Shown: positions 7,710-64,000 of the stretch, piece by piece | Layout of the letters: each line of letters begins with the position of its first letter | Position numbering within the stretch: the first letter of the stretch is position 1 | Assembly: GCF_013283645.1 (NCBI RefSeq) | Contig: NZ_JABEKV010000001.1 | Location: forward strand, 248,001 to 312,000 | Direction: 5' to 3' | Length of the DNA: 64,000 nt | Source of the DNA: Sinorhizobium psoraleae | GTDB taxonomy: Bacteria; Pseudomonadota; Alphaproteobacteria; Rhizobiales; Rhizobiaceae | Notes under the pieces: model-generated | What the model was told of the DNA's origin: nothing | Database searches by the model: none | The model's input: the letters and a program-made list of their open reading frames with translations, nothing else | Position numbers and translations under genes: made by a program

Positions 7710-7711
7710 AC

Positions 7712-7742: not shown

Positions 7743-7822
7743 AGGGGCGGTCCGCAATAACCAGACGGACCGCGACGGGACTGTCGGCGGCGCCGCCTGC
7801 ATGCAGGCGGCGGCGCAATCGC

Positions 7823-9250: not shown

Positions 9251-9278
9251 TTGAGAAATGCTCCCTGAACGGCGTGGT

Positions 9279-9617: not shown

Positions 9618-9703
9618 CTGGTTTCCCATCCTATTCCGCCTCCGCCGGAGGCCGTTCTCCTTGCTGCTTAAGCGCGCGAAGCGCCGGGCAACCGAAGAGA
9701 CAC

Positions 9704-9720
9704 ATTCAAGGGGCGTGCCA
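9704..9720 (-). promoter_or_regulatory. Sigma-54 (-24/-12) promoter of glnK-amtB
   Basis: On the minus strand TGGCACGCCCCTTGAA matches the consensus TGGCAC-N5-TTGC with correct GG-to-GC spacing. The -12 dinucleotide reads GA instead of GC. RpoN promoters upstream of glnK-amtB are well established in proteobacteria. Confidence 0.75.
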
Positions 9721-9765
9721 GATTCGATGGATGGGCTTAAATCTTTGAAAAAAGGCGCAGAAATC

Positions 9766-9795
9766 GCATTCCGTGGAGATTACTCCACGGAATGC
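9766..9795. promoter_or_regulatory. 13-bp perfect inverted repeat between tesB and glnK
   Basis: The arms 9766-9778 and 9783-9795 (GCATTCCGTGGAG and its complement) are separated by ATTA. It lies about 60 bases upstream of the sigma-54 promoter, so it could be an activator site. It also lies about 60 bases past the tesB stop, so it could form a transcript-ending hairpin. It does not resemble the GCAC-N5-GTGC NtrC consensus I know. Confidence 0.55.
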
Positions 9796-9854
9796 TAAAA
9801 AATCACCAGATCTTCAGCGTAAAAAATAGGCAGAAATTGAAAAATGCTCAATTA

Positions 9855-10739
9855 TTATTCAGTTGCCTTTTTGCGGATCAATCCTTCCTGCGCCACGGAG
9901 GCAATCAGCACCCCTGAGCGGTCGAACAGGCTGCCGCGGGTCATGCCGCGGGCGCCATGTGCACTCGGGCTGTCCTGGGTATAAAGCAGCCAGTCATCCA
10001 TCTTCGAGGGGCGGTGGAACCACATGGCATGGTCGAGACTCGCGACCTGCAGGTTGCGGTCGAAGACCGAGGTGCCGTGGGCATAAAGAGAGGTGTCGAG
10101 CAGGGTCATGTCCGAGAGATAGGCAAGCACGGCCGCCTGCAGATGACGCTCGTCCGGCACGGTGCCGACAGCCTTCACCCAGACATCCTGTGTCGGCTGC
10201 AGCTTGTCGCGCGAGAAATAATGCTCAAGCGAGACCGGGCGGATCTCGATCGGTCGCGGCCGCTCCCAGTACCGGCGGATCGCCTCGGGTGCATGGACGA
10301 GAAATTTCTCCCTGAACTCCCGCTCGCCCGGCAACGTTTCCGGCATGGCCACTTTCGGCATCTCGAACTGATGATCGAAACCGTCTTCGTCATATTGGAA
10401 CGAGGCCGACATGGAGAAGATCGCCTTGCCATGCTGGATCGCCACGACCCACCGCGTGGCAAAGCTGGAACCGTCGCGGATGCGATCGACTTCGTAGATG
10501 ATCGGGACCGATGGATCGCCCGGTCGCATGAAATAGGCGTGCAGCGAGTGCACATAGCGGCCCTCGTCGACGGTCCGCTGCGCCGCCACCAGCGCCTGGC
10601 CGATCACCTGTCCACCGAAGACCCGCTGCCAGCCTACCTGGGGGCTTCGGCCGCGGAACAGGTTTTCCTCAAGCTTTTCGAGGTCGAGTATCGCAAGAAG
10701 CGCATCCATGGGCGTGGCAGTTTCGGCTGGGCGCGACAT
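9855..10739 (-). CDS. tesB: Acyl-CoA thioesterase II
   Basis: A 294-residue TesB-type double hotdog thioesterase that hydrolyses acyl-CoA to free acid and CoA. The sequence shows both halves: the N-terminal hotdog (RSPQVGWQRVFGGQVIGQALVAAQRTV, LHAYFMRPGD) and the C-terminal one with the catalytic-region blocks YLSDMTLLDTSL and SLDHAMWFHRP. The ATG at 10739 is preferred over 10775 because GGAG lies about 9 bases upstream. It is divergent from the flavin hydroxylase gene, with which it shares a short promoter region. Confidence 0.93.
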   Translation of the reverse strand: MSRPAETATPMDALLAILDLEKLEENLFRGRSPQVGWQRVFGGQVIGQALVAAQRTVDEGRYVHSLHAYFMRPGDPSVPIIYEVDRIRDGSSFATRWVVAIQHGKAIFSMSASFQYDEDGFDHQFEMPKVAMPETLPGEREFREKFLVHAPEAIRRYWERPRPIEIRPVSLEHYFSRDKLQPTQDVWVKAVGTVPDERHLQAAVLAYLSDMTLLDTSLYAHGTSVFDRNLQVASLDHAMWFHRPSKMDDWLLYTQDSPSAHGARGMTRGSLFDRSGVLIASVAQEGLIRKKATE

Positions 10740-10824
10740 TTCGGCTGTCTCCGATGGTAGGAACGGCGATGGCATTGATCTATATAGCCATAGGACAAAT
10801 GCTCAAGTGCGACGGGAGAAGCGG

Positions 10825-12039
10825 ATGATCGACGTGTTGATTGCCGGAGGCGGCTATGTCGGCCTGTCGCTTGCCGTGTCGCTGAAGAAAGCAGCACCCC
10901 ATCTCGCCGTCACGGTCGTCGACGGCGCGCCGGAAGGCGCCTGGAAGAAGGACGAGCGGGCGTCCGCCGTCGCCTCGGCGGCCGAGCGGATGCTGGACGT
11001 TCTCGGCGTCTGGGATGCGATCGTGCCCGAAGCCGAACCGATCCTCAGGATGGTGATCACCGATTCCAAAGCGGCCGATCCGGTGCGCCCGGTTTTCCTC
11101 ACCTTCGAGGGCGACGGTGGCGACGGACGTCCCTTCGCCCATATGGTGCCGAACACTGCGATGGTCGGCGCGCTGCGCACCGCCTGCAGCGATCTTGGCG
11201 TTTCCATCCGACAATCGACGATGGTCGAGAGCTTCAAGAGCGGCGAGCACGCGGTCGTGGTCACGCTCGGCGGTGGTGAAACAATCGAGACGCGGCTTCT
11301 GGTCGCCTGCGACGGCGTTCGCTCCAAGCTGCGCGAGGCTGCCGGCATCAAGGTGGTCGAGTTCGATTACGGCCAGTCGGGGATCGTGACCACCGTCGAG
11401 CACGAGCGTCCGCACGAGGGCACGGCCGAGGAGCATTTCCTGCCCGCCGGTCCCTTCGCCACGCTGCCGCTCAAGAACAACCGTTCGTCGCTTGTCTGGA
11501 CCGAGAGCACCTTCGACGCCGAACGCCTCGTCAAGGCCGACGATTTCCTCTTCGAGGAGGAACTCGAGCGCCGTTTCGGTCACAAGCTCGGCCACCTCAA
11601 GGTCGTCGGCGGCCGCAGGGCGTTTCCGCTTGGGCTGACGCTCGCCCGCGATTTCGTGGCCCCACGCTTCGCGCTTGCGGGCGACGCTGCCCACGGTATC
11701 CATCCGATTTCCGGGCAGGGACTCAATCTCGGCTTCAAGGATGTGGCGGCGCTCGCGGAAACGATTGTCGAGGCGGACCGTCTGGGCCTCGATATCGGGT
11801 CGCTCGCGGTTCTCGAGCGCTACCAGAGCTGGCGACGTTTCGATACCTTCCGCATGGGGGTGACGACGGATGTCCTGAACCGGCTGTTCTCGAACGACAT
11901 CACGCCGATCAGGATCGCGCGCGATGTCGGCCTCGGCATCGTCGATCGTCTCCCGTCGCTCAAGAATTTCTTCATTCGCCAAGCGGCCGGGGTCGCGAGT
12001 GAAGGGGACCCGCGCCTGCTTTCGGGTCAGCCGATCTGA
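10825..12039 (+). CDS. UbiH/UbiF/COQ6-family FAD-dependent hydroxylase
   Basis: A 404-residue class A flavin monooxygenase of the type that hydroxylates the ubiquinone ring. It has the FAD Rossmann motif GGGYVG (residues 8-13) and the second FAD motif GDAAHGIHPISGQGLNLGFKD characteristic of UbiH/F/I and COQ6. The ATG at 10825 follows GGGAGAAG. Which ring carbon is hydroxylated cannot be told; alphaproteobacteria use paralogues (UbiL, UbiM and others) with different regioselectivity, so no symbol is assigned. Confidence 0.85.
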   Translation: MIDVLIAGGGYVGLSLAVSLKKAAPHLAVTVVDGAPEGAWKKDERASAVASAAERMLDVLGVWDAIVPEAEPILRMVITDSKAADPVRPVFLTFEGDGGDGRPFAHMVPNTAMVGALRTACSDLGVSIRQSTMVESFKSGEHAVVVTLGGGETIETRLLVACDGVRSKLREAAGIKVVEFDYGQSGIVTTVEHERPHEGTAEEHFLPAGPFATLPLKNNRSSLVWTESTFDAERLVKADDFLFEEELERRFGHKLGHLKVVGGRRAFPLGLTLARDFVAPRFALAGDAAHGIHPISGQGLNLGFKDVAALAETIVEADRLGLDIGSLAVLERYQSWRRFDTFRMGVTTDVLNRLFSNDITPIRIARDVGLGIVDRLPSLKNFFIRQAAGVASEGDPRLLSGQPI

Positions 12040-12069
12040 GGGCTGACGCCATTCACGCGACGATTGCTC

Positions 12070-12276
12070 TTACTGCTCCGACAGCTTCATGTCCGGGTGA
12101 TAGTCCTTGCCTGCCACTTCCTTGACCACCGCTTGGCCGCACTGCATGTGCTGGGTGTCGGCATTGAAGGCATAGGTCGGGGGACCGTGCAGGGCCCATC
12201 CCTGATTCAATGCCGCCGTCACCTTGTGGCAGAAGGAGGCGTCGTCGGGGCCTGTGAGAAAGCGGTAGAGTTTCAA
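12070..12276 (-). CDS. DUF1737 domain protein
   Basis: A 68-residue protein made of one DUF1737 domain (LYRFLTGPDDASFCHKVTAALNQGWALHGPPTYAF). I recall it as a small cytoplasmic domain of unknown role. Its start overlaps the stop of the preceding CitE-like gene by four bases (ATGA-type), so the two are translationally coupled. No catalytic motif is apparent. Confidence 0.75.
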   Translation of the reverse strand: MKLYRFLTGPDDASFCHKVTAALNQGWALHGPPTYAFNADTQHMQCGQAVVKEVAGKDYHPDMKLSEQ

Positions 12277-13175
12277 GGTTTCGCCTTTCGTTTCTCGATC
12301 ATGTCCGCCTTGGCGGCGAGTTTCAGAGCCTGGTCGAGATGCAGCCGTTCGACCATGCGGCCGTGGAGATTGATCACGCCCTTGTCGGCGTTTTCCGGAA
12401 GATCGAATGCCGCGATGATCGCGCGCGCCTCGTCGACCGCCGCCTGATCGACACCGAAGTGCTCGTTCGCCGGACCGATCTGCGCCGGGTGGATGAGCAT
12501 CTTGCCGTCGTAGCCCATGTCACGCCCCTGGCGGCATTCGGCCTCGAAACCGTCGGCGTCGCGGAAATCGTTGAAGACCGCGTCGATGGCGTCAAGCCCG
12601 CTGCTGCGCGCCGTGAGCAGGACCTGCATAAGCCAGGGCACGAGATAGGTGCGGCCGGCATGCGCGGGAACGCGCGTCTCCTTTCTCAGATCGTTCAGCC
12701 CGACGACGAAGCAATCGAGCCGGCCGCCGAAGGTACGGCCGGTCTCGGCGATCGCCGCGACATTGAGCAGGCCGCGCGGCGTTTCGATCATCGCCCAGAG
12801 CCGCAGACTTTCAGGCGCATCGTTCTCCGCCAGCCAGTCAACGGCCACCTGGATATCGGCGGGGCTTTCGACCTTCGGTAAAAGGATCGCGTCGGGGCTG
12901 GCGGCAAGCGCGGCGGTGAGGTCCATCTGGCCGAAGCCGGATCCCAGTGCATTGACGCGAATGACCACTTCGCAGTCCGGTCTATTCTTCGAAAGATGCC
13001 GGACAAGCGCTTCGCGGGCTTCGCCCTTGTGTTCGGGAGCGACAGCATCCTCCAGGTCGAAGATCACGGCATCGGCGGCAAGCTGCCGGACCTTTGCCAG
13101 CGCACGGGAATTGTCGGCCGGAACGCAAAGCACGGAGCGGCGCAGGCGGGCCGGATGATGGTCGAGAGTTGTCAT
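12273..13175 (-). CDS. HpcH/HpaI aldolase / CitE-like CoA ester lyase
   Basis: A 300-residue TIM-barrel lyase of the citrate lyase beta / malyl-CoA lyase group. It shows LRRSVLCVPADNSRALAKV, the acidic metal-binding segment VIFDLEDAVAPEHK, the conserved LLPKVESP, an IETPRGLLN loop, and the late GYDGKMLIHPAQI signature. Substrates are probably an acyl-CoA such as malyl- or methylmalyl-CoA; sequence alone does not decide. The ATG at 13175 gives the family length, although the frame is open to 13487. It is co-transcribed with the DUF1737 gene. Confidence 0.85.
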   Translation of the reverse strand: MTTLDHHPARLRRSVLCVPADNSRALAKVRQLAADAVIFDLEDAVAPEHKGEAREALVRHLSKNRPDCEVVIRVNALGSGFGQMDLTAALAASPDAILLPKVESPADIQVAVDWLAENDAPESLRLWAMIETPRGLLNVAAIAETGRTFGGRLDCFVVGLNDLRKETRVPAHAGRTYLVPWLMQVLLTARSSGLDAIDAVFNDFRDADGFEAECRQGRDMGYDGKMLIHPAQIGPANEHFGVDQAAVDEARAIIAAFDLPENADKGVINLHGRMVERLHLDQALKLAAKADMIEKRKAKP

Positions 13176-13220
13176 GATCCCGTTGTGCCCGCCTTTCGAT
13201 TTTTGCGCAAGACGAGCGAC

Positions 13221-13270
13221 TACAGCGCCGTGCGTCCAATCGGACGCGCTAAAATTGCTGTAGCATTTGA
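13221..13270. repeat. RIME-type mosaic repeat, copy 3 (one module)
   Basis: TACAGCGCCGTGCGTCC...GGACGCGC...GCTGTAGC, a single palindromic module in the opposite orientation to copy 2, located upstream of the CitE-like gene. Confidence 0.75.
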
Positions 13271-13335
13271 TATAGGGCTTCCCTCTTGCAAGAGGAGCAT
13301 CCAGCCCCCACATCGCTGGTAGAAAGGTGACCATC

Positions 13336-13581
13336 ATGCAAAGCATCCGCTCTGTTCTCCTGACGGCCGCCGCCATTGCGATCACGCTGGCAGCCCTCGT
13401 CTTCACCGCCTCGCTTGCCGTGGCTCTTGCCGGCATCGCCGCCGTTGTCGCGATCGGCAGCGCCATCGCCGCCAGGCTCAATGGCAAGCCTCAGCATGCG
13501 CGCGCCCGAGCGAACCCGACCGGCGAAAGACGCGAAATGCGGATCTGGAACGACGGACGCGGCACGATCATCGATCTGTGA
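13336..13581 (+). CDS. Small membrane protein of unknown function
   Basis: An 81-residue protein with a hydrophobic block covering residues about 7-47 (VLLTAAAIAITLAALVFTAS then LAVALAGIAAVVAIGSAIAA). This fits two short transmembrane helices or one hairpin. A basic tail ends in REMRIWNDGRGTIIDL, a tail I recall from other small rhizobial membrane proteins. The ATG at 13336 follows AGAAAGG; a GTG at 13327 is possible. RIME repeats lie on both sides. No function is suggested. Confidence 0.6.
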   Translation: MQSIRSVLLTAAAIAITLAALVFTASLAVALAGIAAVVAIGSAIAARLNGKPQHARARANPTGERREMRIWNDGRGTIIDL

Positions 13582-13584
13582 CGT

Positions 13585-13643
13585 GCAGCAATTCAAAGCG
13601 CTACATCGATCTTTGCGCGTCCGATTGGACGCGCGGCGCTGCA
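13585..13643. repeat. RIME-type mosaic repeat, copy 4
   Basis: GCAGCAATTCAAAGCGCTACA...GCGCGTCC-GATT-GGACGCGC...GCTGCAG. The element lies between the small membrane protein and leuD. Confidence 0.8.
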
Positions 13644-13717
13644 GATTTCCCTTCATTTCGGCGCAAAACTGATCTAAACGCTCTTCAACATTTCCGCTGA
13701 AACCGAAGGCCAAAGTC

Positions 13718-14323
13718 ATGGAAAAGTTCGTCAAGCTCACCGGCGTCGCTGCGCCCCTGCCCGTTGTCAACATCGACACGGACATGATCATTCCGAAGGA
13801 TTACCTGAAGACGATCAAGCGCACCGGTCTCGGCAAGGGACTTTTCGCCGAAGCCCGTTACAATGAGGACGGCACGCCGAACCCGGATTTCGTGCTCAAC
13901 AAGCCGGCCTATCAGAATGCCAAGATCCTGGTTGCCGGCGACAATTTCGGCTGTGGCTCCTCGCGCGAACATGCGCCTTGGGCGCTCCTCGATTTCGGCA
14001 TCCGCTGCGTGATTTCGACGTCGTTCGCCGACATCTTCTATAACAACTGTTTCAAGAACGGCATTCTGCCGATCGTCGTCAGCCAGGCCGACCTCGACAA
14101 GCTGATGGATGACGCCAACCGCGGTTCGAATGCCGTGCTGTCGATCGATCTGGAAGCGCAGGAAATCACAGGTCCGGACGGCGGCTCAGTCAAGTTCGAG
14201 GTCGATGCCTTCAAGCGCCACTGCCTGTTGAACGGTCTCGACGACATCGGCCTGACGCTGGAGAAGGCGAGCGCCATCGACAGCTTCGAGCAGAAAAACA
14301 CCGTAGCGCGCCCCTGGGCCTGA
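13718..14323 (+). CDS. leuD: 3-isopropylmalate dehydratase small subunit
   Basis: A 201-residue swivel-domain subunit that pairs with LeuC in leucine synthesis. Diagnostic motifs are [13 protein letters not shown] near the start and the substrate-loop block [17 protein letters not shown], followed by [18 protein letters not shown]. The length is normal. It is followed 12 bases later by a RidA-family gene and may be cotranscribed with it. leuC lies about 13.4 kb upstream, so the two subunits are made from separate transcripts. Confidence 0.96.
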
Positions 14324-14335
14324 GCGCCAGCGCCC

Positions 14336-14716
14336 ATGACGCGCAAGCTCATCTCTTCCGGTTCCCCTTTCGAGAAGACGGCAGGCTACTCGCGTGCCGT
14401 CGTCAAAGGGGACTGGTGCTTCGTCTCCGGGACGACCGGCTACGACTATGCCACCATGGCCATGCCGGAGACGGTGGAGGAACAGGCGCGCAATTGCCTG
14501 AGGACGATCGAGGGCGCCTTGAAGGAGGCCGGGTTCTCGCTTTCGGACGTTGTGCGCAACCACTACTATGTCACCGACGCCGGCTTCGCCGACCGGGTCT
14601 TCCCGATCTTCGGCGAGGTGTTCGGCGACATCCGCCCGGCGGCGACGATGATCGTCTGCGATCTCATCCGCCCGGAAATGCTGATCGAGATCGAGGTCAC
14701 GGCGTTTCGCGGGTAG
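14336..14716 (+). CDS. RidA/YjgF family protein
   Basis: A 126-residue chorismate mutase-like trimer subunit. RidA-type enzymes hydrolyse reactive enamine/imine intermediates released by PLP enzymes. The arginine used for the carboxylate in active RidA proteins is present at residue 100 (DIRPAATMIV). The protein begins 12 bases after leuD, so it may protect branched-chain metabolism, but that is inference. Active RidA and inactive relatives share this fold, so activity is likely but unproven. Confidence 0.85.
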   Translation: MTRKLISSGSPFEKTAGYSRAVVKGDWCFVSGTTGYDYATMAMPETVEEQARNCLRTIEGALKEAGFSLSDVVRNHYYVTDAGFADRVFPIFGEVFGDIRPAATMIVCDLIRPEMLIEIEVTAFRG

Positions 14717-14763
14717 GGTCGGTCCTCTCCAGCCGCCGTTCAGCGTAGACCGAAGAGAAGCTC

Positions 14764-15603
14764 ATGCAGTTCGAAGGCACCGCCGACTACATCGCCGACA
14801 AGGACCTGATGATCGCCGTCAATGCGGCAATCCGGCTGGAGCGTCCGCTACTCGTCAAGGGCGAGCCAGGCACCGGCAAGACCGAACTCGCCCGCCAGAT
14901 CGCCGCCGCCCTCGGCCTCGAGCTCATCGAGTGGAACGTCAAGTCGACCACAAAGGCACAGCAGGGGCTTTACGAATATGATGCCGTCTCGCGGCTGCGC
15001 GACAGCCAGCTCGGCGATGCCCGCGTCAACGACGTGAAGAACTACATCCGCAAAGGCAAGCTCTGGCAGGCCTTCGAGGCGCCGCGGAAGACCGTGCTCC
15101 TGATCGACGAGATCGACAAGGCGGATATCGAGTTCCCGAACGACCTCTTGCAGGAACTCGACCGGATGGAGTTCCATGTCTACGAGACCGGCGAGACCAT
15201 CCACGCGCGGCACCGGCCGATCGTCATCATCACCTCCAACAACGAGAAGGAACTGCCGGACGCCTTTTTGCGCCGCTGCTTCTTCCATTATATTCGCTTC
15301 CCCGACGCCGAAACGCTCGCCCGCATCGTCGAGGTGCACTATCCGGGTATCCGCAAGACGCTGCTTTCGGCGGCGCTCAACGCCTTCTACGGCATCCGCG
15401 AGGTGCCGGGGCTGAAGAAGAAACCCTCGACATCCGAAGCGCTCGACTGGATCAGGCTGCTCGTCGCCGACGAGATCGATCCGGCGGACCTGCGTGCCGA
15501 TCCGAAATCGATGCTGCCGAAACTGCACGGAGCGCTTTTGAAGAACGAGCAGGACGCGCATCTCTTCGAGCGGCTGGCCTTCATGACGCGACGCGACGGG
15601 TGA
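14764..15603 (+). CDS. MoxR-family AAA ATPase
   Basis: A 279-residue AAA+ chaperone-like ATPase with Walker A GEPGTGKT (33-40), Walker B VLLIDEID (112-118), an ITSNNEKELPDAFLRRC sensor block and a C-terminal lid. MoxR ATPases work with von Willebrand A proteins to insert metals or remodel complexes. The matching VWA gene is nearby at 16748, but metA with its own riboswitch sits between them. Substrates are unknown. Confidence 0.9.
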   Translation: MQFEGTADYIADKDLMIAVNAAIRLERPLLVKGEPGTGKTELARQIAAALGLELIEWNVKSTTKAQQGLYEYDAVSRLRDSQLGDARVNDVKNYIRKGKLWQAFEAPRKTVLLIDEIDKADIEFPNDLLQELDRMEFHVYETGETIHARHRPIVIITSNNEKELPDAFLRRCFFHYIRFPDAETLARIVEVHYPGIRKTLLSAALNAFYGIREVPGLKKKPSTSEALDWIRLLVADEIDPADLRADPKSMLPKLHGALLKNEQDAHLFERLAFMTRRDG

Positions 15604-55953: not shown

Positions 55954-56065
55954 GTCCGGTTCTCCTTGGTCGGTCCGGCCGGAGATATTCCGGCGGCACA
56001 AGGAGATTGCGGGACATTCGGCCGACAAAGAAATGCCGCCTGCTTTTGAATTCCATAGCTCAGAG

Positions 56066-56998
56066 CTATTGCGGGAGAGGAGTAGCGTCGGCCGATCGGC
56101 GCATGTCTATACCGGAATGTGGTGCGGCCCAGCCGTAGGATTTGACTGCTCCAACGAAGGTGGCGACAGCCGGCGAGAACCGCCGGCCCGCGACAGTCAC
56201 GAGGCAAACCTCCCGCGTGACCTCCGGTTCGACCACAGGCCGGACCTGCAAGCCTGGAATGACGGCGCTGTATTCGGGAATGAAGCAGATGCCGAGCCCG
56301 CCCGCCACCATGTTTTGTATCCAGTCCTCCCGCTCGCTGGAATAGGAGATCTGGGTCTTCACGCCAGAGGACTCGCACAACTCCGTCAGATAATCCCAGT
56401 ATTCGCAGTTCACGCGTCTGAGATAGATCTCGCCATCGATGGCGGTAATGGGAACCGCGTCGTATTGACAGAGACGGTGACCCGGAGGAAAGGCGAGCAT
56501 GAACCTTTCACGAAACAGCGGGGTCACGTCGAAGCGTTCGGGGAAGCGGTCGCTGCTCGCCATGATGGCGACATCTATCTCTCCTTCCCCAAGCAGTTCT
56601 GAAAGCTTGGACGGCACACCTTCGACGAGCTGAAGTTGAACGCCGCGATGGCGCATGTTGAAGTCGGTGAGCAGGCCGGTAAACCGACGCGGTCCGATCG
56701 TGCACATGATGCCGACCTTCACATGCGCATCTTCCAGGCAGAGAAAGCGTGACGCTTCCTGTCTGACGCCCGAGAGCTCGTCGAGAATCGACTGAAACCG
56801 CGGTCTCAGCAGGTTTCCGAGATCCGTGATGTGGGTCAGGTTCCGTTCCCGCCGAAACAGGAGCCCGCCGACTTCATCTTCGAGTTGCTGGACGGCACGG
56901 CTCAACGCCGGCTGGGTGACGTTGCACTTTTCGGCCGCACGCGTGAAATTTCGCGTCTCGCAAACGGCCAGGAAATACCGAACGTGGTGAATGTCCAT
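56066..56998 (-). CDS. LysR-family regulator, divergent from bdhA
   Basis: A 310-residue regulator. The N-terminal helix-turn-helix is MDIHHVRYFLAVCETRNFTRAAEKCNVTQPALSRAVQQLEDEVGGLLFRRER, with the effector domain from about residue 90. The ATG at 56998 starts the conserved MDIHHVRYF; the frame is open to 57073. It is divergent from the 3-hydroxybutyrate dehydrogenase gene (176 bases between starts) and also follows the cupin-MFS group in the other direction, so either side could be its target. Confidence 0.9.
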   Translation of the reverse strand: MDIHHVRYFLAVCETRNFTRAAEKCNVTQPALSRAVQQLEDEVGGLLFRRERNLTHITDLGNLLRPRFQSILDELSGVRQEASRFLCLEDAHVKVGIMCTIGPRRFTGLLTDFNMRHRGVQLQLVEGVPSKLSELLGEGEIDVAIMASSDRFPERFDVTPLFRERFMLAFPPGHRLCQYDAVPITAIDGEIYLRRVNCEYWDYLTELCESSGVKTQISYSSEREDWIQNMVAGGLGICFIPEYSAVIPGLQVRPVVEPEVTREVCLVTVAGRRFSPAVATFVGAVKSYGWAAPHSGIDMRRSADATPLPQ

Positions 56999-57173
56999 AA
57001 CCGCCCCCGCAGGGTTTTCGTGTCCAGGCGGCCACTCTCCAATGCAGGCGCCGCTTTCACCAATGCAATTCACCTATCGAATTCATAGCACAGTGGCATT
57101 TCAGTTGAAATGAATACAGCGCCATTCTCGTCCCGGAAGAGGCCCTCCGGCCCAAACGTGAGGAGACGCGGAC

Positions 57174-58004
57174 ATGTTCAAAAGTACCGAGGCTGAAATC
57201 GACGCGATGTTCGGGCGCAGGGCGCTCGAGGGGCGCAGCGCCATCGTCACCGGTTCCACCAGCGGCATTGGTCTCGGCATCGCCCAGGCGCTTGCCAAAG
57301 CGGGCGCGGCAGTGATGCTCAACGGCTTTGGCGATCCGGCGGAAATCGAGCGGCAGCGGGCCGAGATGACGGAGGAGAACGACGTCGATGTCGCCTATGA
57401 CAGCGCCGATATGTCGAGTCCGGAGGCGATCCGAATGATGGTCGAGCGCGCCGGCGCCCGCTTCGGGCAGGTCGACATCGTCGTCAACAATGCCGGCATA
57501 CAGCATGTTGCACCGATCTCTGAGTTCCCGACGGCGAAATGGGACGCGATCCTTGGGATCAATCTTTCTGCTGCGTTTCACCTCGTTCAGGCGACCTACG
57601 GGCAGATGTGCGCTCGCGGCTACGGACGCGTCATCAACGTCGCCTCAGCTCATGGTCTCGTCGCCTCGCCCTACAAGTCCGCTTACGTGGCCGCCAAGCA
57701 TGGGCTCGTCGGACTCACCAAGGTTGTGGCGCTCGAAGGCGCGGAATTCGGCATTACGGCCAATGCGATCTGCCCGGGCTATGTCTGGACGCCGCTGGTG
57801 GAGGCGCAGATCGACGGACAGGCAAAGTCGCACGGGATCGCGCGCGACGCGGTTATCCGCGACGTGTTCCTGAAGAACCAGCCGACCAAGCGCTTCGCGA
57901 CAGTCGAGGAAATGGGGGCGCTCAGCGTCTTCCTGTGCAGCAGCGCGGCCGCTTCGATCACCGGCGCGGCCATTCCCGTGGATGGCGGGTGGACAGCCCA
58001 TTGA
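57174..58004 (+). CDS. bdhA: 3-hydroxybutyrate dehydrogenase
   Basis: A 276-residue short-chain dehydrogenase that interconverts (R)-3-hydroxybutyrate and acetoacetate in polyhydroxybutyrate turnover. The cofactor motif is TGSTSGIG (26-33), the structural motif NNAGIQHV, and the catalytic residues are Ser158, Tyr171 and Lys175. FLKNQPTKRFATVEE and ITGAAIPVDGGWTAH are typical of this enzyme. The N-terminus is about 16 residues longer than the usual 260-residue protein. A patatin-like gene follows after 17 bases. Confidence 0.92.
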   Translation: MFKSTEAEIDAMFGRRALEGRSAIVTGSTSGIGLGIAQALAKAGAAVMLNGFGDPAEIERQRAEMTEENDVDVAYDSADMSSPEAIRMMVERAGARFGQVDIVVNNAGIQHVAPISEFPTAKWDAILGINLSAAFHLVQATYGQMCARGYGRVINVASAHGLVASPYKSAYVAAKHGLVGLTKVVALEGAEFGITANAICPGYVWTPLVEAQIDGQAKSHGIARDAVIRDVFLKNQPTKRFATVEEMGALSVFLCSSAAASITGAAIPVDGGWTAH

Positions 58005-58021
58005 TCGAGAGGAGCAGAGCC

Positions 58022-59107
58022 ATGAACAAGCACATCCAAGTGGGCCCGCCGGAATCCGAACACGCGGTGCGGCGCTCCGAGCCCGACATGCGCCCGCCGC
58101 GAACGATAAACCTCGCGCTTCAGGGCGGGGGTGCGCACGGCGCATTCACCTGGGGCGTGCTCGACCGGCTGCTCGACGAGGTGAACCTCTCCTTCGACGG
58201 CATCGTTGCGACCAGTGCCGGCGCGATGAACGCCGCGGTCCTGGCCTATGGGCTTGCGGAAGGCGGCCGCAGCGGCGCGCAGAAGGCGCTCGCCAATTTC
58301 TGGCGCCGCATCAGCCATGCGGCAGCCTTCAGTCCGCTGCAGCCGAGTGTGCTTGACCGTGTAACGGGGTCGAAATCATTGGAGTTTTCGCCGGCCTTCG
58401 TCATTTTCGACATGGTGACACGGCTGCTCTCGCCCTATCAGTTCAACCCGTTGAACTACAATCCGCTGCGCCAGGTTCTGGAGCAATCGATCGACCTCGA
58501 TGCGATCCGCATGTCCCGCTGTCCCGTGAAGCTCAACATCTGCGCGACCAACGTGCGCTCCGGCAAGGTCAAGGTGTTTTCCAATGACGAGATCTCGATC
58601 GACGCCGTAATGGCCTCGGCCTGCCTGCCGTTCCTGTTTCAAGCCGTCGAGATCGACGGCGAGGCCTATTGGGACGGAGGCTACATGGGAAACCCTGCCA
58701 TTTTCCCGCTGATCTACGGCTGCGACACGCCGGACGTGCTGGTGGTACACATCAATCCGCTGGAGCGAACGGAACTGCCGCGCACTGCGGCGGAAATCCT
58801 GAACAGGATCAACGAAATAAGCTTCAACTCGTCATTGTTGAGGGAGATGCGGGCAATCGCCTTCGTGACGCACCTGATCGATTCCGAGGCCGGCAATTCA
58901 CTTGGCCTCAAACGTGTCTTCGTACACGGCATCTCCGACGATGAGACGATGAGAAACCTCAGCGTCTCAAGCAAACTCAATGCCGAGTGGGGAGCCCTCG
59001 TAGACCTCCGTGACCGCGGTCGACAGTGCGCGGAGGACTGGCTGATGGCGAACTACGACGCGATAGGGAAGCGTTCGAGCGTCGATATCAGTACGCGTTA
59101 TCTCTAG
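58022..59107 (+). CDS. Patatin-like lipid/ester hydrolase
   Basis: A 361-residue cytoplasmic protein with the patatin Ser-Asp dyad. The oxyanion motif is GGGAHG (35-40), the nucleophile is Ser65 in ATSAG (canonical GxSxG with the first Gly changed to Ala), and Asp218 lies in YWDGGYMGNP. Patatins cleave acyl esters. Its tight coupling to bdhA suggests a substrate in polyhydroxybutyrate metabolism, but this is inferred from context; such pairs are common in rhizobia. GAGAGGAGC precedes the ATG. Confidence 0.9.
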   Translation: MNKHIQVGPPESEHAVRRSEPDMRPPRTINLALQGGGAHGAFTWGVLDRLLDEVNLSFDGIVATSAGAMNAAVLAYGLAEGGRSGAQKALANFWRRISHAAAFSPLQPSVLDRVTGSKSLEFSPAFVIFDMVTRLLSPYQFNPLNYNPLRQVLEQSIDLDAIRMSRCPVKLNICATNVRSGKVKVFSNDEISIDAVMASACLPFLFQAVEIDGEAYWDGGYMGNPAIFPLIYGCDTPDVLVVHINPLERTELPRTAAEILNRINEISFNSSLLREMRAIAFVTHLIDSEAGNSLGLKRVFVHGISDDETMRNLSVSSKLNAEWGALVDLRDRGRQCAEDWLMANYDAIGKRSSVDISTRYL

Positions 59108-59156
59108 AGCGGGATGAGGAAAAATGTGAAGCGGTTTTCCGCCCACATCCCGCTCT
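59106..59156. repeat. Palindromic AGAGCGGGATG element after the patatin gene
   Basis: 11-bp perfect arms AGAGCGGGATG (59106-59116) and CATCCCGCTCT (59146-59156) around GAAGCGGTTTTCC. The left arm overlaps the patatin stop codon. It is related to the element at 2394. Confidence 0.8.
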
Positions 59157-59437
59157 AAACCAAATCATCGTGATGTAGGGCGTTCGACGCTTCCCGACCA
59201 ATCGCAGCGCGTCGCCACGGAGTGCGCGCAAGCCCTCGTTGCCATCTTCCCTCCCGATGGCAGTCTTGCCCCCTCCCGGGGGCTTTTTTTCGTCCTGGGT
59301 GCGCCCATCGCTGACGGATAGTTCGGCCTATCGAAACCATGCCTGAACAGCATTTCAAACAGCGCGAGCGGTCTGCGAAGCTTCTCAGCATCAGGCCGAT
59401 GTGCGGTCTGAACAATGTCAGATCCAGGAGATGTTCA
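59108..59437. other. Leader region of the buf operon
   Basis: About 330 bases without a gene: the palindromic repeat, then a strong terminator at 59268, then about 145 bases up to bufA1. The promoter of the buf operon must lie in the last part unless transcription reads through. I could not find a convincing ECF-sigma or sigma-70 pair. Confidence 0.5.
59268..59290 (+). terminator. Terminator between the patatin gene and bufA1
   Basis: GCCCCC (59268-59273) pairs with GGGGGC (59278-59283), followed by seven T residues. It separates the bdhA-patatin pair from the buf operon, or acts as an attenuator in the buf leader. Confidence 0.85.
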
Positions 59438-59707
59438 ATGATCAACACTCGTACGCTCATCAGTTCCGCGCTTGCGGCGATCGCCTCCGTCTCGGCTTCC
59501 ACGGCTTCGGCGGGGCCGGCCGCCCAGCCCGACTTCTCGTTCGAGAAGTGCTACGGCATCGTCAAGGCCGGGCAGAACGACTGCCAGACGGCAACCCATT
59601 CCTGCGCGGGCACGTCAACGATGGACGACCAGGTCGACGCCTGGATCTACGTGCCTGCCGGCACCTGCGGAAAGATCGCCGGCGGCAGCAACGCCCCGAA
59701 GGCCTGA
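59438..59707 (+). CDS. bufA1: Bufferin-type RiPP metallophore precursor (DUF2282)
   Basis: An 89-residue precursor. A Sec signal peptide (TRTLISSALAAIASVSASTASA) ends at ASA/GP near residue 25. The remaining ~64-residue core has exactly four cysteines, 38, 49, 56 and 77, in the BufA1 pattern EKCYGIVKAG-x-NDC-x6-SCAG...GTCGKI. In known bufferins the MNIO enzyme converts core cysteines to thiooxazole-type heterocycles and the exported peptide binds excess copper. AGGAG precedes the ATG. It is first in a tight operon with the DUF692, DUF2063 and DoxX genes. Confidence 0.93.
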   Translation: MINTRTLISSALAAIASVSASTASAGPAAQPDFSFEKCYGIVKAGQNDCQTATHSCAGTSTMDDQVDAWIYVPAGTCGKIAGGSNAPKA

Positions 59708-59743
59708 CGGCCCCGCGACAGCAAGCAAAAAGGGAGTAGACCG

Positions 59744-60775
59744 ATGCCCAAGACGTTTCCAACCCACCCGATGCCGTGCGCTGCGGGCATCGGCCTCCGT
59801 TCCATACACATTGCCGAGATGCTTTCCCGCAGGCCTGCTGCGGGTTGGCTCGAAGTCCATGCCGAAAACTACATGGGCCAATCAGCGGCCGTGGATGCGC
59901 TCGAGAAGCTGCGCGAGGTTTATCCGCTTTCGGTGCACGGCGTCGGACTGTCGCTCGGCAGCGCCTCAGGTCTCGACCGAGCGCATCTGGAGCGGCTGCG
60001 CCTCGTCTGCCAACGCTTTCAGCCAGCGATCGTCTCCGAACACCTTGCGTGGAGCGTCGCCGATGGCGCCTACCTCAACGACCTTCTGCCGCTCCGTTAT
60101 GACGATGAGGCACTTGCCATCGTTTCCGCGAACGTCGGCCGGCTGCAGGACACGCTCAAGCGCCAGGTGTTCATCGAAAACCTCTCCGCCTATCTCGCCT
60201 TCGCTGAATCGAGCATGACCGAGGCCGAATTCCTGAGCGAGCTCGTCAACCGGACCGGTTGCGGCTTGTTGCTGGACGTCAACAACGTCCATGTCTCAGC
60301 AAGCAACCTCGATTTCGATGCACTGGCCTTCATCGACGCCCTGCCTGCCGACGCGATCGGTGAAATTCACCTTGCCGGCCACGCGGTCAATGAAATCGAC
60401 GGCGACGTCATTCTCATCGACGACCATGGGTCTCGTGTGCCGCCGGCCGTCTGGTCGCTCTATGCCCACGCGCTCCGCAGGATCGGCCCTCGGCCGACAC
60501 TCATCGAATGGGACACGGATGTGCCGCCGCTCGAGGTCCTGTTGGGCGAAGCGATGTGGGCCGACATGCTCGCCCGTCGGATCGCCTTCGACGAACGCCT
60601 CGAGGAGCCGCCGGTTACTGTGCCAGACGGCCGTTTCGAGACCATGAGGTTGCCCGGCCGCGACGGCACAACTGGCATCCTTTTCCCGGCGCTCGCCGCA
60701 ACAGCGGCAGTCAAAGCCGCTTGCGGCAAGTGCGCATCGGATCATTGCAGGAGGAACGGCCATGTCTTCCATTGA
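59744..60775 (+). CDS. bufB: MNIO-family (DUF692) cysteine-modifying enzyme BufB
   Basis: A 343-residue TIM-barrel multinuclear non-haem iron oxidase that modifies cysteines of the precursor peptide using O2. Residues of the family iron site lie in VHAENYM, SVHGVGLSLGS, SEHLAWS, FIENLSAY, LDVNNVHVSASN, EIHLAGH and DDHGSRV, and the barrel ends LIEWDTDVPPLEVLL. The C-terminal ~60 residues include an unusual Cys-containing tail (CGKCASDHC). AAAGGGAG precedes the ATG. It overlaps bufC by 14 bases. Confidence 0.95.
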   Translation: MPKTFPTHPMPCAAGIGLRSIHIAEMLSRRPAAGWLEVHAENYMGQSAAVDALEKLREVYPLSVHGVGLSLGSASGLDRAHLERLRLVCQRFQPAIVSEHLAWSVADGAYLNDLLPLRYDDEALAIVSANVGRLQDTLKRQVFIENLSAYLAFAESSMTEAEFLSELVNRTGCGLLLDVNNVHVSASNLDFDALAFIDALPADAIGEIHLAGHAVNEIDGDVILIDDHGSRVPPAVWSLYAHALRRIGPRPTLIEWDTDVPPLEVLLGEAMWADMLARRIAFDERLEEPPVTVPDGRFETMRLPGRDGTTGILFPALAATAAVKAACGKCASDHCRRNGHVFH

Positions 60776-61562
60776 AACGCTGCAGAGTGTCGTCGCGCGT
60801 GCGGTTCTGACGACCGGGCCGGCAGATATCCTGCCGCTTCTGGCACGGGGTCGTTTCGATCCCGCAAGGCGGTTCAACATCTACCGCAACAATACACTGG
60901 TCTCGCTCACCACGACCTTGAAGGCCGTCTTTCCCGTGACGGTGCGGCTGCTCGATGAACGCTACTTCAGTTATGTCGCCGGCCGCTTCACCCGGAGCAG
61001 CCCGCCACGAGAGCCGCGCCTTTCGCGGTACGGTGCAGGATTTGCGCCATTTCTCGCGAACTTCGAGGGAACCGCCGATATGCCCTTCGTCTCTGAGGTC
61101 GCGCGCCTCGAGTGGAAGATCGCCGAAGCGCTCGACGCCCCGTTGGAGCGGCCAAGTACACTCATCGAACTCTATGAGCGGCTTTCGAGTGGGTCCTTCG
61201 TGCTTTTCTTGCAGCCTTCGCTGCGACTTGTTCTTTGCCGTTGGCCCGCCCTCAGCATATGGGCGGCGCATCAGCATGGAGGCGAACCCGACAGACTCGC
61301 GGACCTCAACCGCGAACCGGAGCGCATCGCGCTCTGGAGACATGATGACACCGTTCGCTTCCTGCGCCTCGACGCCGCGGAGTTTGCGTTTTGGCATGTG
61401 TTGAGGCGGGGCAAGGGACTCGAGGCTGCGGTTGCCCGCGCCTGCCGCCACTCGCCTGAGTTCGATATCGCACGAGCGGTGACAGGCCTTTTCGTCAGCG
61501 AGCTCGTCACCGGCATCCATCGCACGAAGGAGTCTTCCAACCAGCAGGAGAGAGTGTCATGA
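60762..61562 (+). CDS. bufC: BufC-type MNIO partner (DUF2063)
   Basis: A 266-residue protein of the DUF2063 family, annotated historically as a putative DNA-binding domain but now known as the peptide-recognition partner of MNIO enzymes. It has FNIYRNNTLVSLTTTLKAVFPVTVRLLDERYF near residue 40 and ASLAR-type domains (AFLARRF equivalents: RYGAGFAPFLANFEG). It is translated from an ATG inside the bufB 3' end and overlaps the DoxX gene by four bases, so stoichiometric production with BufB is likely. Confidence 0.92.
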   Translation: MSSIETLQSVVARAVLTTGPADILPLLARGRFDPARRFNIYRNNTLVSLTTTLKAVFPVTVRLLDERYFSYVAGRFTRSSPPREPRLSRYGAGFAPFLANFEGTADMPFVSEVARLEWKIAEALDAPLERPSTLIELYERLSSGSFVLFLQPSLRLVLCRWPALSIWAAHQHGGEPDRLADLNREPERIALWRHDDTVRFLRLDAAEFAFWHVLRRGKGLEAAVARACRHSPEFDIARAVTGLFVSELVTGIHRTKESSNQQERVS

Positions 61563-62032
61563 CCACAATGCGCGCAACACCGATCAGCATTTCCAGAACG
61601 ATATACAGGCTTCACGACACTGTCGTGGAGTGGACGACCGCCCTGCCGCTATCGATCGTGCAGTTTGCATCGCGCGTGGCGGTCGCAGAGGTATTCTGGC
61701 AGTCCGCCCAGACGAAGCTCGCCTCATGGCCGGTCACGCTCCAGCTGTTCGCCTTCGAATATCGCTTGCCGCTGCTCGATCCCGGGCTGGCCGCCCTCAT
61801 GGCGACGGCGGCGGAACTCAGTGGCGCGGCGATGCTCGGATTGGGACTGCTCGCGCGGCTCGCCTCGCTGATGCTGCTCGGCGTCGTCGCGACCATCCAG
61901 ATCTTCGTCTACCCGGATCATTGGGTCGAGCATCTGATGTGGACGAGCCTGCTCATGCTCATTCTTTCGCGAGGCGCCGGCGTGTTTTCAGTCGATCATC
62001 TGGTCGCCCGACGCATCCGTGCCGGAGGCTGA
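61559..62032 (+). CDS. bufD: DoxX-family membrane protein of the buf operon
   Basis: A 157-residue inner-membrane protein with four hydrophobic helices (ALPLSIVQFASRVAVAEVFW, LAALMATAAELSGAAMLGLG, ARLASLMLLGVVATIQIFVY, LMWTSLLMLILSRGAGVFS). DoxX proteins are regular last members of bufferin operons, called BufD in characterised systems; they may handle redox equivalents or quinones. The ATG overlaps the bufC stop (ATGA). The flavoprotein gene begins four bases after its stop. Confidence 0.9.
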   Translation: MTTMRATPISISRTIYRLHDTVVEWTTALPLSIVQFASRVAVAEVFWQSAQTKLASWPVTLQLFAFEYRLPLLDPGLAALMATAAELSGAAMLGLGLLARLASLMLLGVVATIQIFVYPDHWVEHLMWTSLLMLILSRGAGVFSVDHLVARRIRAGG

Positions 62033-62035
62033 GTG

Positions 62036-63352
62036 ATGTCAGTGACGCCTGTTCAGAGCGGCTCCGTGCCGGGCGAAATTGCGACCGGCACGGACCAGGC
62101 AAAGCACCGGCCGCGTGTGGTCATTCTCGGTGCGGGCTTCGGCGGCCTGAACGCGGCGATGACGCTTCGCCGCGCGCCGGTCGAAGTCACCGTCATCGAC
62201 CGGCGAAACTATCACCTGTTCCAGCCTCTCCTTTACCAGGTAGCGACCGCGGGGCTCTCGCCGGCGCAGATCGCCATGCCGATCCGCCGCATTCTTTCGC
62301 GGCAGTCGAATGCCACGGTCCTGATGGACAAGGTCGAGGCGGTCGATACCGCCGCTGGATGCGTCGTGACTGGCAGCCGGCGCATCCCATATGATTATCT
62401 GATCGTCGCGACCGGCGCCCGCCACACTTATTTCGGCAACGACATCTGGGCGGACCACGCCCCGGGCCTCAAGACAATCACGGATGCGACGGCGATCCGC
62501 GCCCGCATCCTCTCCGCCTTCGAACGGGCGGAGGTGACCGATGATCCCCGTTTGCGTCAGAGGCTGTTGACCTTCGTCGTTGTCGGCGGCGGGCCGACCG
62601 GCGTCGAGCTCGCCGGCGCGATCGCCGAGCTCTCCCGAAGGACGATCGTTCACGATTTCCGGCGCATCGATTCATCCTCCGCCCGGGTCGTGCTCGTCGA
62701 GGCGGGTGAGCGGATATTGCCGGCGATGCCGCCTTGCCTTTCGAGAAAGGCCCAGAGACAACTCGAAAAGCTTGGCGTCGAGGTCGTGCTCGGCAATGCC
62801 GTCGCCGGCTGTGATGACAGCGGTGTACGGCTGGTCGACGGAACTGAAATCGGCTCCGCCTGCATTCTCTGGGCCGCGGGCGTCATGGCTTCGCGCGCCG
62901 CCAAGTGGATCGGTGCGGCGGCCGACCGCGCCGGACGAGTCATCGTCGACGAGCGCCTCAATCCACCAGGGCACGACGAAATATTCGTCATCGGTGACAC
63001 GGCCTCGGTCACCGATGCGGCCGGACGTCCTGTACCGGGCGTGGCGCCGGCAGCCAAGCAGATGGGGCGTTATGCAGCCTACGCCATTCTCGGCGACATG
63101 GCGGGACGGCACCCGGCGCCGTTCCGCTATCGTGACTACGGCAATCTCGCGACTATCGGCCGCAAGGCAGCGGTCGCGGATTTCGGCAAGACCAGGCTCT
63201 CCGGCTATCCGGCATGGCTCGTCTGGAACTTCGCCCATCTCTGGTTCCTCGTCGGCTTCCGCAACCGCCTCGTCGTCTTTCTCGACTGGGCCGTCGCATA
63301 TGCCCGCAACGATCGCGCCGCGCGGCTGATTACCGGTCACCATGAGGCCTAG
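62036..63352 (+). CDS. NDH-2-like FAD-dependent NAD(P)H dehydrogenase
   Basis: A 438-residue two-dinucleotide-binding flavoprotein. The FAD motif is LGAGFGGLNAA (32-41), the NAD(P)H motif VVVGGGPTGVELAGAIAEL near residue 182, and IFVIGDTAS is the second FAD contact. A C-terminal hydrophobic amphipathic region (LVWNFAHLWFLVGFRNRLVVF) fits the membrane-anchoring end of type II NADH:quinone oxidoreductases. GGAGG sits 7 bases before the ATG at 62036. It starts four bases after the DoxX stop, so it belongs to the buf transcript, although it is not a canonical buf gene. Confidence 0.9.
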   Translation: MSVTPVQSGSVPGEIATGTDQAKHRPRVVILGAGFGGLNAAMTLRRAPVEVTVIDRRNYHLFQPLLYQVATAGLSPAQIAMPIRRILSRQSNATVLMDKVEAVDTAAGCVVTGSRRIPYDYLIVATGARHTYFGNDIWADHAPGLKTITDATAIRARILSAFERAEVTDDPRLRQRLLTFVVVGGGPTGVELAGAIAELSRRTIVHDFRRIDSSSARVVLVEAGERILPAMPPCLSRKAQRQLEKLGVEVVLGNAVAGCDDSGVRLVDGTEIGSACILWAAGVMASRAAKWIGAAADRAGRVIVDERLNPPGHDEIFVIGDTASVTDAAGRPVPGVAPAAKQMGRYAAYAILGDMAGRHPAPFRYRDYGNLATIGRKAAVADFGKTRLSGYPAWLVWNFAHLWFLVGFRNRLVVFLDWAVAYARNDRAARLITGHHEA

Positions 63353-63354
63353 CG

Positions 63355-64000
63355 ATGTATCGCCCGAAGCTCGCCCAGGTCATCATCGTTATCCTCATGC
63401 TAGCGGTGCTCTCCACTGCCGCGCTGATCCATCTCATCTGGCAGCGTGCAGCCGGCGAGAACATCGAGGAGATCGTCGCGAGTCTCGATGCCCAGACGGC
63501 GGGATCCGTCAGGAACGACCTATCCCGGACGTTGTCGCTCGTGACGAGCACCGCCGAAGTTGTCCGCTCCATCTTCTTCCAAGGTGCGATCAGCGCCAAT
63601 GACGAGGTCAAGCGCGAGTTCCTGTTCCTGTCGCTGCTGCGCGAGCAGCCGGCGATCGACTGGATCGGCTTCGGTTTTCCGGATGGGCGCTTTTTCGGAT
63701 CGCATGCGACCGCCGACGGCCGCATCGAGATGGTCGAGATCGGCGCCGCTGAAGCTGGCGAACTCCGTCCGTTGCGGCGCGATCTGTACAGACCGATCCC
63801 GGGCGACATCTTTTTCGAGGAGCGCATCAAGGCGGAGAGCGCCTATGTGGCACTCGGCGCCCCGTGGTATCGATTGGGCAAGGAAACCGGAGAGCCTGTC
63901 TGGGTGGTCACCAATGTGCTGCCGAACGGTTTCGAGCCCGCCATGGTGCTATCGAAGCGCGTCGTGAGCTTCGGAAAGTTTACCGGCGTGGTGATGGTGG
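63355..64000 (+). CDS. Membrane sensor protein, N-terminal part (cut by window edge)
   Basis: At least 215 residues, open at the right edge. It has one N-terminal transmembrane helix (LAQVIIVILMLAVLSTAALIHL), then a periplasmic sensor region that looks like a Cache domain (SVRNDLSRTLSLVTSTAEVVRS, QPAIDWIGFGFPDGRFFGSH, SAYVALGAPWYRLG). The output domain, perhaps a nucleotide cyclase or kinase, lies outside the window. The ATG is two bases after the stop of the flavoprotein gene, so it is the sixth gene of the buf transcript. Confidence 0.75.
   Translation, partial: MYRPKLAQVIIVILMLAVLSTAALIHLIWQRAAGENIEEIVASLDAQTAGSVRNDLSRTLSLVTSTAEVVRSIFFQGAISANDEVKREFLFLSLLREQPAIDWIGFGFPDGRFFGSHATADGRIEMVEIGAAEAGELRPLRRDLYRPIPGDIFFEERIKAESAYVALGAPWYRLGKETGEPVWVVTNVLPNGFEPAMVLSKRVVSFGKFTGVVMV

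Follow-up and report, generated by a model that had tools for sequence, protein, structure and literature searches.

Organization of the extended bufferin operon

The subject of this work is a run of six plus-strand genes at the end of a 64,000-nt stretch of the Sinorhizobium psoraleae genome (contig NZ_JABEKV010000001.1, positions 248,001 to 312,000), referred to as the window and used for the coordinates below; labels of the form L### and G### stand for fetched loci and for genomes. The first four genes constitute a bufferin operon. In such operons, the bufA, MNIO, and DUF2063 products lead to an exported, copper-binding thiooxazole peptide. Here the run continues into a type II NADH:quinone dehydrogenase (NDH-2), an enzyme that oxidizes NADH and reduces quinone, and a membrane adenylate cyclase:

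59438..59707, plus strand: bufA, bufferin-1-type precursor, 89 amino acids (aa); Pfam DUF2282, 3.3e-25
59744..60775, plus strand: bufB, MNIO enzyme, 343 aa; Pfam MbnB_TglH_ChrH (PF05114), 1.1e-99, and NCBIfam MNIO_BufB
60762..61562, plus strand: bufC, DUF2063 partner protein; Pfam DUF2063, 4.2e-18
61559..62032, plus strand: DoxX membrane protein, 157 aa; Pfam DoxX, 3.8e-11, aligned with bufferin-operon DoxX rows
62036..63352, plus strand: NDH-2, 438 aa; a GTG start at 62033 is also possible
63355..64000, plus strand, running past the window to L003:10278: membrane class III adenylate cyclase with a Cache-like periplasmic part

All six reading frames were confirmed at these positions. The junctions are +36 bases from bufA to MNIO, -14 from MNIO to DUF2063, -4 from DUF2063 to DoxX, +3 (from the ATG at 62036) or 0 (from the GTG) from DoxX to NDH-2, and +2 from NDH-2 to the cyclase, whose 3′ end is overlapped in the host contig by a DUF3307 gene. 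The original prediction, of a four-gene bufferin set extended at tiny gaps by NDH-2 and a membrane protein, is borne out by these junctions and by the scores, judged by curated cut-offs for Pfam and by each model's own cut-off for NCBIfam. The DUF2282 precursor reaches 88.2 bits against a cut-off of 22.4, DUF2063 (65.8 bits) and DoxX (43.9 bits) are both over theirs, and the MNIO reaches 363.6 bits against the 310 required for MNIO_BufB (NF050167). The precursor has four Cys and an Ala-rich, signal-like N-terminal stretch, the latter read from the sequence with no signal-peptide program score. Assignment to BufA2 (Buf2) was rejected: the score is 28.1 bits against a cut-off of 60, and there are four Cys, not six. 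The HvfC model gives 49.5 bits for bufC (cut-off 142), and the HvfX family model 40.5 bits for DoxX (cut-off 80). The locus is an ordinary bufferin-1 core with a conserved extension.

Two side features of the MNIO deserve mention. It carries a C-terminal extension of about 60 aa (window 60595-60775), common to the tandem-type orthologues, which in most Sinorhizobium loci read ends in a short Cys tail, CGKC...C; the other genera read are without the tail. The same genome has a second bufferin locus of the common type (L012, G000:C1:1624000-1642000, at 3721-6457), with an MNIO 47% identical to that of the window and an operon without NDH-2 or cyclase.

The fifth gene product has the Pfam domains Pyr_redox_2 (2.5e-50) and NDH2_C (2.8e-9), both above cut-off, and matches PDB 9mqy, titled mycobacterial NDH2 (phmmer, 8e-109). 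At the quinone site, where we take the motif to be AQxxxQ, the window protein has APAAKQ, as do the L012 NDH-2 and most of 88 rows.

Conservation of the linkage

Conservation in related genomes had been named beforehand as a check on the original prediction, and it is what we found. Samples comprised 33 genomes for the genus, 247 for the family, 297 for the order, and 289 for the class. Within the genus, a window-type MNIO (at least 80% identity) is present in 22 genomes, of which 21 also have the NDH-2 (at least 82%) and the cyclase (at least 80%); the contig edge of the 22nd (G030) falls inside the MNIO gene, and the other 11 genomes lack all three orthologues together. The order bufA-MNIO-DUF2063-DoxX-NDH-2-cyclase-DUF3307 holds in 18 of the 19 genus loci fetched, the 19th (G026) having a contig break inside NDH-2 with the rest continued on another contig. 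In Sinorhizobium fredii NGR234 the operon is carried by pNGR234b. Some assemblies are irregular: G021 (L031) has its MNIO split over two overlapping frames, by decay or sequencing error, and one Sinorhizobium terangae assembly (G031) has the operon and its LysR-HBDH-patatin flank (described below) on three contigs (L080, L081, L082), whereas another terangae genome (G032, H1) has the operon once; the triple copy is a recent duplication or an assembly effect. In G498 (L066), the sole window-type locus found without NDH-2 and cyclase, the interruption of DUF2063 may likewise reflect decay or sequencing error.

In the family sample, MNIO (at least 65%) and cyclase (at least 56%) occur in the same 8 genomes, a ninth MNIO being cut by a contig end; the five of these eight that come from other genera all show the tandem arrangement (L051, L052, L053, L055, L056). 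Some MNIO at E <= 1e-50 is found in 132 of the 247, but in 123 of these the identity is at most 52%. In the order sample, four genomes have the MNIO (at least 63%), three of them with NDH-2 and cyclase and the fourth being G498. The tandem order is seen again and again in Sinorhizobium, Rhizobium, and Mesorhizobium as well as in two other families, and in more distant Alphaproteobacteria the parts are present but arranged differently. Because it is conserved across relatives, the linkage of the extension to the bufferin operon is not a matter of chance.

A second survey started from the cyclase. A scan with its sensor part, one genome per species, returned 159 relatives, and the counts below cover the best 80; several of these genomes are also in the genus, family, and order samples, and the counts are not independent. 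An MNIO lies in the fetched stretch at 46 of the 80 loci, and an NDH-2 (at least 55% identity) at 33, 32 with MNIO and one at a contig edge. Among the 46 MNIO-bearing loci, 27 have the six genes in tandem order, and one more (L103) is truncated where its contig begins. Another 4 contain every part in a different arrangement. In the other 14 (from Bradyrhizobium, Mesorhizobium, and one Lichenifustis) the cyclase accompanies bufferin genes, often divergent from bufA, but NDH-2 is missing.

The third survey was of NDH-2 in the class sample. At E <= 1e-130, the only matches listed, NDH-2 occurs at 31 places in 29 of the 289 genomes, and an MNIO (E <= 1e-55) is found in 100. Leaving aside the window's own, 30 NDH-2 places remain; 5 of these have an MNIO no more than 4 kb away (G684, G841, G588, G761, G600), and a sixth place near an MNIO is the other NDH-2 of the S. 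psoraleae genome. About 0.17 of the 30 would be expected within 10 kb of an MNIO by chance, a rough estimate that ignores kinship and assumes 1.3 MNIO per 4.5-Mb genome. Of the 20 places (of 31) fetched, L171, L172, and L180-L182 have none of the parts.

The blandest explanation of the extra genes is that they are passive neighbors, inherited with the operon and sharing no function with it. The set is indeed inherited as a block within the genus, and the genome's other NDH-2 is not operonic although it stands 6.6 kb from the second MNIO. Set against this, the same parts occur in different orders (L107, L109, L110, L125, L164-L168) and with several NDH-2 lineages. In L107, L110, and L125, for example, the order is that of genes for 3-hydroxybutyrate dehydrogenase (HBDH) and patatin, then bufA-DoxX-NDH-2-MNIO-DUF2063, with LysR and cyclase genes divergent, and in L109 it is bufA-MNIO-DUF2063-cyclase-HBDH-patatin-acetoacetate decarboxylase-DoxX/NDH-2. 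A tree of 57 NDH-2 proteins, ten rows of which were labelled unlinked without a look at their neighbors, points the same way. The 20 tandem-operon NDH-2s form a single clade (support 100/99), and the other NDH-2 of this genome falls with other unlinked rhizobial NDH-2s in a separate clade. The bufferin-linked label requires 5 changes on this tree, at least 4 of them on well-supported branches; the association has therefore been gained or lost on several occasions, an argument against co-inheritance alone, and we regard passive neighborhood as highly improbable.

Two lesser candidates arose in this survey. The other NDH-2, 54% identical to that of the window, was dropped as an operon partner of the second bufferin locus, since unrelated genes (NmrA, HxlR, SRAP) lie between. 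A peroxiredoxin (AhpC/TSA) gene is present in 8 of 98 MNIO-bearing loci and is absent from the window, so it is accessory only and not a fixed part of the system; it was seen in the reordered clusters L167, L169, L109, L165, and L153, in some adjoining NDH-2 or HBDH. On the E. coli plasmid NZ_CP040068.1 (L159), a 53% relative of NDH-2 lies among formaldehyde-detoxification genes, another use of NDH-2 in a stress operon.

DoxX/NDH-2 fusion proteins

In the window, DoxX and NDH-2 are separate proteins from adjacent genes. Elsewhere the two domains occur in one frame: by Pfam, seven proteins have both (L109, L166, L167, L173, L175, L179, L183), the DoxX match in L173 being over cut-off as a whole-protein score only, and three of them (L109, L166, L167) adjoin bufA and MNIO. 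Fusions of the L109 and L175 type have the layout DoxX-DoxX-NDH-2. An eighth, fusion-like protein in G707 is 49% identical to the fusion over residues 40-729, nearly end to end, and is encoded far from the listed MNIO of that genome. The seven fused NDH-2s and the G707 protein form a clade of their own (100/99) in which bufferin-linked and unlinked members are mixed. The predicted model of the L109 fusion (pLDDT 85.7, pTM 0.66) consists of two halves, the N-terminal one helical and the other an NDH-2 that matches mycobacterial NDH2. Several candidates were not counted: the 605-aa frame of L105 has no Pfam DoxX and a non-hydrophobic N-terminus, its DoxX match being in another frame; L174, L177, and L169 have long N-termini with no DoxX by Pfam; and the count leaves out the NDH-2 places G644 and G756, which have long frames. 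Because natural fusions occur, DoxX and NDH-2 are likely to be physical or functional partners in general. The suggestion that a quinone reductase acts with DoxX is strengthened accordingly.

The fusions also bear on a narrower idea, that electrons pass straight from NDH-2 to the iron centre of MNIO or to precursor thiols in the cytoplasm, NDH-2 taking the place of the ascorbate or DTT used in vitro and DoxX being a mere membrane anchor. MNIO is reported to require a reductant in vitro, with activity tracking mixed-valent iron (PMC13419390), and ascorbate is reported to raise turnover, the need for an external reductant being left open in that account (PMC13097082); moreover, NDH-2 stands directly between DoxX and MNIO in L107, L110, and L125. 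However, the MNIO landscape paper, in the portion available, does not count a reductase as part of the conserved core (PMC12452194), which suggests that other MNIOs manage without one, and the fusions of L173, L175, L179, and L183 have no MNIO in the fetched stretch. We consider direct reduction quite improbable.

Upstream genes and the respiratory alternative

Three recurrent neighbors and two sequence features precede the operon:

56066..57073, minus strand: divergent LysR-type regulator; Pfam HTH_1 and LysR_substrate
57174..58004, plus strand: HBDH; NCBIfam PHB_DH, 357.5 bits (cut-off 307)
58022..59107, plus strand: patatin-like phospholipase; Pfam Patatin, 7.8e-27
59268..59283, plus strand: terminator-like hairpin with T run, between patatin and bufA
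59315..59437, plus strand: conserved leader or promoter block before bufA with a GATAG-TTCGGC-CTATC dyad, from 16 aligned genus upstream regions

Of the 27 tandem loci, 25 have the HBDH-patatin pair immediately 5′ of bufA, and the pair appears again in reordered clusters; in G607 the order is bufA-MNIO-DUF2063-DoxX-HBDH-patatin. In S. psoraleae HBDH is presumably on a transcript separate from the bufferin operon. These genes are what an account in purely respiratory terms would draw on: NDH-2 would be an auxiliary dehydrogenase re-oxidizing NADH derived from HBDH and polyhydroxybutyrate (PHB) when copper or other stress impairs respiration, co-regulated with the bufferin genes and passing no electrons to DoxX, MNIO, or copper. 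In L169, L176, and L178, HBDH-patatin adjoins NDH-2 or lies in its vicinity, and bufferin genes are absent. A census of HBDH covered the first 80, in table order, of the 99 class genomes that have an MNIO besides this one; they hold 47 HBDH places, and 4 of these (G633, G607, G600, G630) are no more than 10 kb away from an MNIO. HBDH with acetoacetate decarboxylase occurs in both L109 and L198. In Legionella, a bdhA-patD mutant is described as failing in PHB breakdown (PMC4549902, citing Aurass 2009). This account leaves the in-frame DoxX/NDH-2 fusions unexplained, and NDH-2 is 0-3 bases from DoxX, whereas HBDH-patatin sits behind the hairpin. We hold it to be possible but rather unlikely.

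In L198 itself (G630, 4186-15168), genes for acetoacetate decarboxylase and HBDH, together with a partial match to the cyclase, are about 5 kb away from a bufferin operon, a set that resembles L109 and the reported Legionella H4 cluster treated below.

As to transcript signals, a separate promoter for the NDH-2 gene would have spoken for an independent unit; a simple scan limited to the sigma-70 consensus detected nothing resembling a terminator or a promoter where DoxX meets NDH-2 or NDH-2 meets the cyclase, and the single promoter-like match inside the NDH-2 gene compares with 1.5 expected by chance. The block at 59315-59437 is possibly a regulator site or a leader; an Rfam scan of 56000-64000 gave no match at gathering scores. 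A precursor start at 59339 instead of 59438 was rejected, as leader indels in some aligned relatives break the frame.

The adenylate cyclase and its sensor part

The full cyclase is 640 aa long (L003:8356-10278 in the host contig), with two membrane helices flanking a periplasmic domain and a C-terminal class III domain (Pfam Guanylate_cyc, 3.7e-19); fold searches returned catalytic-domain matches (CyaC, CyaB). Residues D438, D481, N556, R560, K477, and T549 are invariant in all 36 aligned relatives, and we take them to be the two metal-binding Asp, the Asn and Arg, and the Lys/Thr pair for adenine. The protein very likely makes cyclic AMP (cAMP). The Cache-type membrane sensor of the original prediction needs rewording: there is a membrane sensor part, but the gene was cut by the window end and encodes an adenylate cyclase, and the dCache_1 score (37.1 bits) is below the cut-off of 45, a relative in L170 reaching 45.4. 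The cyclase identity, the HBDH and patatin genes upstream in the conserved neighborhood, and the DUF3307 gene downstream are features beyond that prediction.

The further proposal that the sensor reads periplasmic metal, copper included, is conceivable but not supported by the residues present. The window sensor part (29-331) has no Cys, and across the 36 relatives no Cys or His is invariant and a single Met, M126, is; in the seven tandem-operon rows, M126 and M214 are in all and H117 in five. An organic ligand would be a guess. TRAP transporters were dismissed as a hint to such a ligand, being present at 5 of 33 loci without MNIO, three of them at least 8 kb off.

Some 30 loci of Ruegeria and relatives (L112-L118, L121-L124, and others) encode a cyclase of this family but have no MNIO close by, and the neighbors of the cyclase in two of them, L112 and L117, are unlike each other.

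A role of cAMP in feedback on the operon was also considered. The consensus box used for the cAMP receptor Clr agrees with that in a paper that credits S. meliloti with 28 putative cyclase genes (PMC10127613). Among the 16 genus upstream regions, the Clr core has an exact match in one (L018) and a one-mismatch match at the same conserved place in five others (L013, L022, L026, L027, L028); other one-mismatch matches are about as frequent as chance. A Clr box as feedback site at the window bufA is not supported, there being no core match.

Weighing the redox-unit reading

We favor, at a probability of roughly 0.55, the reading that DoxX and NDH-2 form a redox unit dedicated to the bufferin pathway. 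NDH-2 would be the cytoplasmic, NADH-oxidizing partner of DoxX, the two forming an NADH-to-FAD-to-quinone/DoxX unit in the inner membrane. Such a unit may keep the MNIO iron and the precursor thiols in the redox state needed, or it may reduce periplasmic copper or disulphides; the likeliest uses are that thiols or copper are kept reduced in the periplasm, where bufferins act, or that MNIO chemistry is supported. HBDH, fed from PHB, would be a likely source of NADH under stress, and the cyclase would convert a periplasmic signal to cAMP. We infer a single transcript, physical contact between DoxX and NDH-2, the direction of electron flow, a copper-handling role, and a putative ligand and targets for the cyclase. 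Making or using the peptide may thus be tied to cell energy and signaling.

Several observations weigh against this reading. Four of the seven fusions (L173, L175, L179, L183) have no bufferin gene in the fetched stretch, so the DoxX/NDH-2 pair has a use of its own. Most bufferin loci lack an NDH-2: in the class sample, NDH-2 at the stringent threshold lies within 4 kb of an MNIO in 6 of the 100 MNIO-bearing genomes, that of the window included. G498 has bufA, MNIO, an interrupted DUF2063, and DoxX, but neither NDH-2 nor cyclase appears in its fetched 17 kb, and the genome as a whole gives no cyclase match at E <= 1e-75. A universal tie between cyclase and bufferin is to be rejected: 33 of the 80 cyclase loci, mostly Ruegeria, have neither MNIO nor NDH-2 in the fetched stretch. 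Likewise, partial additional copies of the operon-type cyclase occur without MNIO in G117 (L062, G117:C217, 66%) and in G243 (L057, 69%), one of them followed by DUF3307 and neither with a bufferin gene in the fetched stretch. Finally, no Clr core site lies upstream of the window bufA, even at one mismatch.

There is also a wider reading, which we offer tentatively and think unlikely: DoxX and NDH-2, as two proteins or one, would be an unrecognized membrane redox complex carrying electrons from PHB- and HBDH-derived NADH across the quinone layer, with thiols or copper in the periplasm as acceptors, bufferins as its metal-holding partner, and a cyclase gated by a periplasmic ligand coupling it to carbon status. 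If true, such a complex would give the DoxX of bufferin operons a defined job. HvfX is termed uncharacterized in one account (PMC13419390), and the main interest of the extension is as a lead on DoxX function: the conserved pair and the natural fusions are a concrete candidate both for the role of DoxX and for the source of MNIO reductant. The recurring cyclase and PHB-type genes suggest, in addition, that copper-peptide production is tied to cAMP signaling and the state of the carbon reserve, a link that the bufferin literature, in the portions available, does not discuss.

Comparison with known systems

The MNIO landscape paper describes four conserved core genes, sigma/anti-sigma genes in some Buf1 clusters, a few redox-type extras (oxidored_molybd, ferric reductase) in related EGKCG clusters, and additional conserved genes in extremely low proportions (PMC12452194); its main text is without the words NADH, oxidoreductase, dehydrogenase, and Cache. 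The extension is on record in one species, Legionella pneumophila, where it was given no interpretation in the part of the report seen, and our searches of the open-licence literature turned up nothing that treats it as a conserved system. That record is the H4 cluster, lpg0671-lpg0676, listed in 2017 with four bufferin homologues, a DoxX-bearing NADH dehydrogenase, an acetoacetate decarboxylase, and an adenylate cyclase (PMC5413113); lpg0665-0669 and lpg0670-0674 are reported as up-regulated in the same two phases (PMC3048289). Compared by description, H4 shares with the window the bufferin homologues, an NADH dehydrogenase together with DoxX, and the adenylate cyclase, but it is laid out on two strands, joins DoxX and NADH dehydrogenase in one protein, and includes the acetoacetate decarboxylase.

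The individual parts compare with known families in the same double manner. The cyclase resembles class III membrane-sensor adenylate cyclases in that two membrane helices enclose a periplasmic domain and the catalytic domain is of the CyaC and CyaB kind; it differs in that its subfamily accompanies MNIO in 46 of 80 loci (the best 80 of 159). The NDH-2 is like known NDH-2s in its FAD/NADH domains, its NDH2_C domain, and its match to a solved mycobacterial NDH2, and differs in being borne by an operon, beside DoxX, and in a clade apart from the second NDH-2 of the genome. With the bufferin-1 clusters (bufA-bufB-bufC-DoxX; gig operons) the window shares the four core genes in their usual order, the four-Cys DUF2282 precursor, and the BufB-type MNIO; it differs in that the run goes on into NDH-2, adenylate cyclase, and DUF3307.

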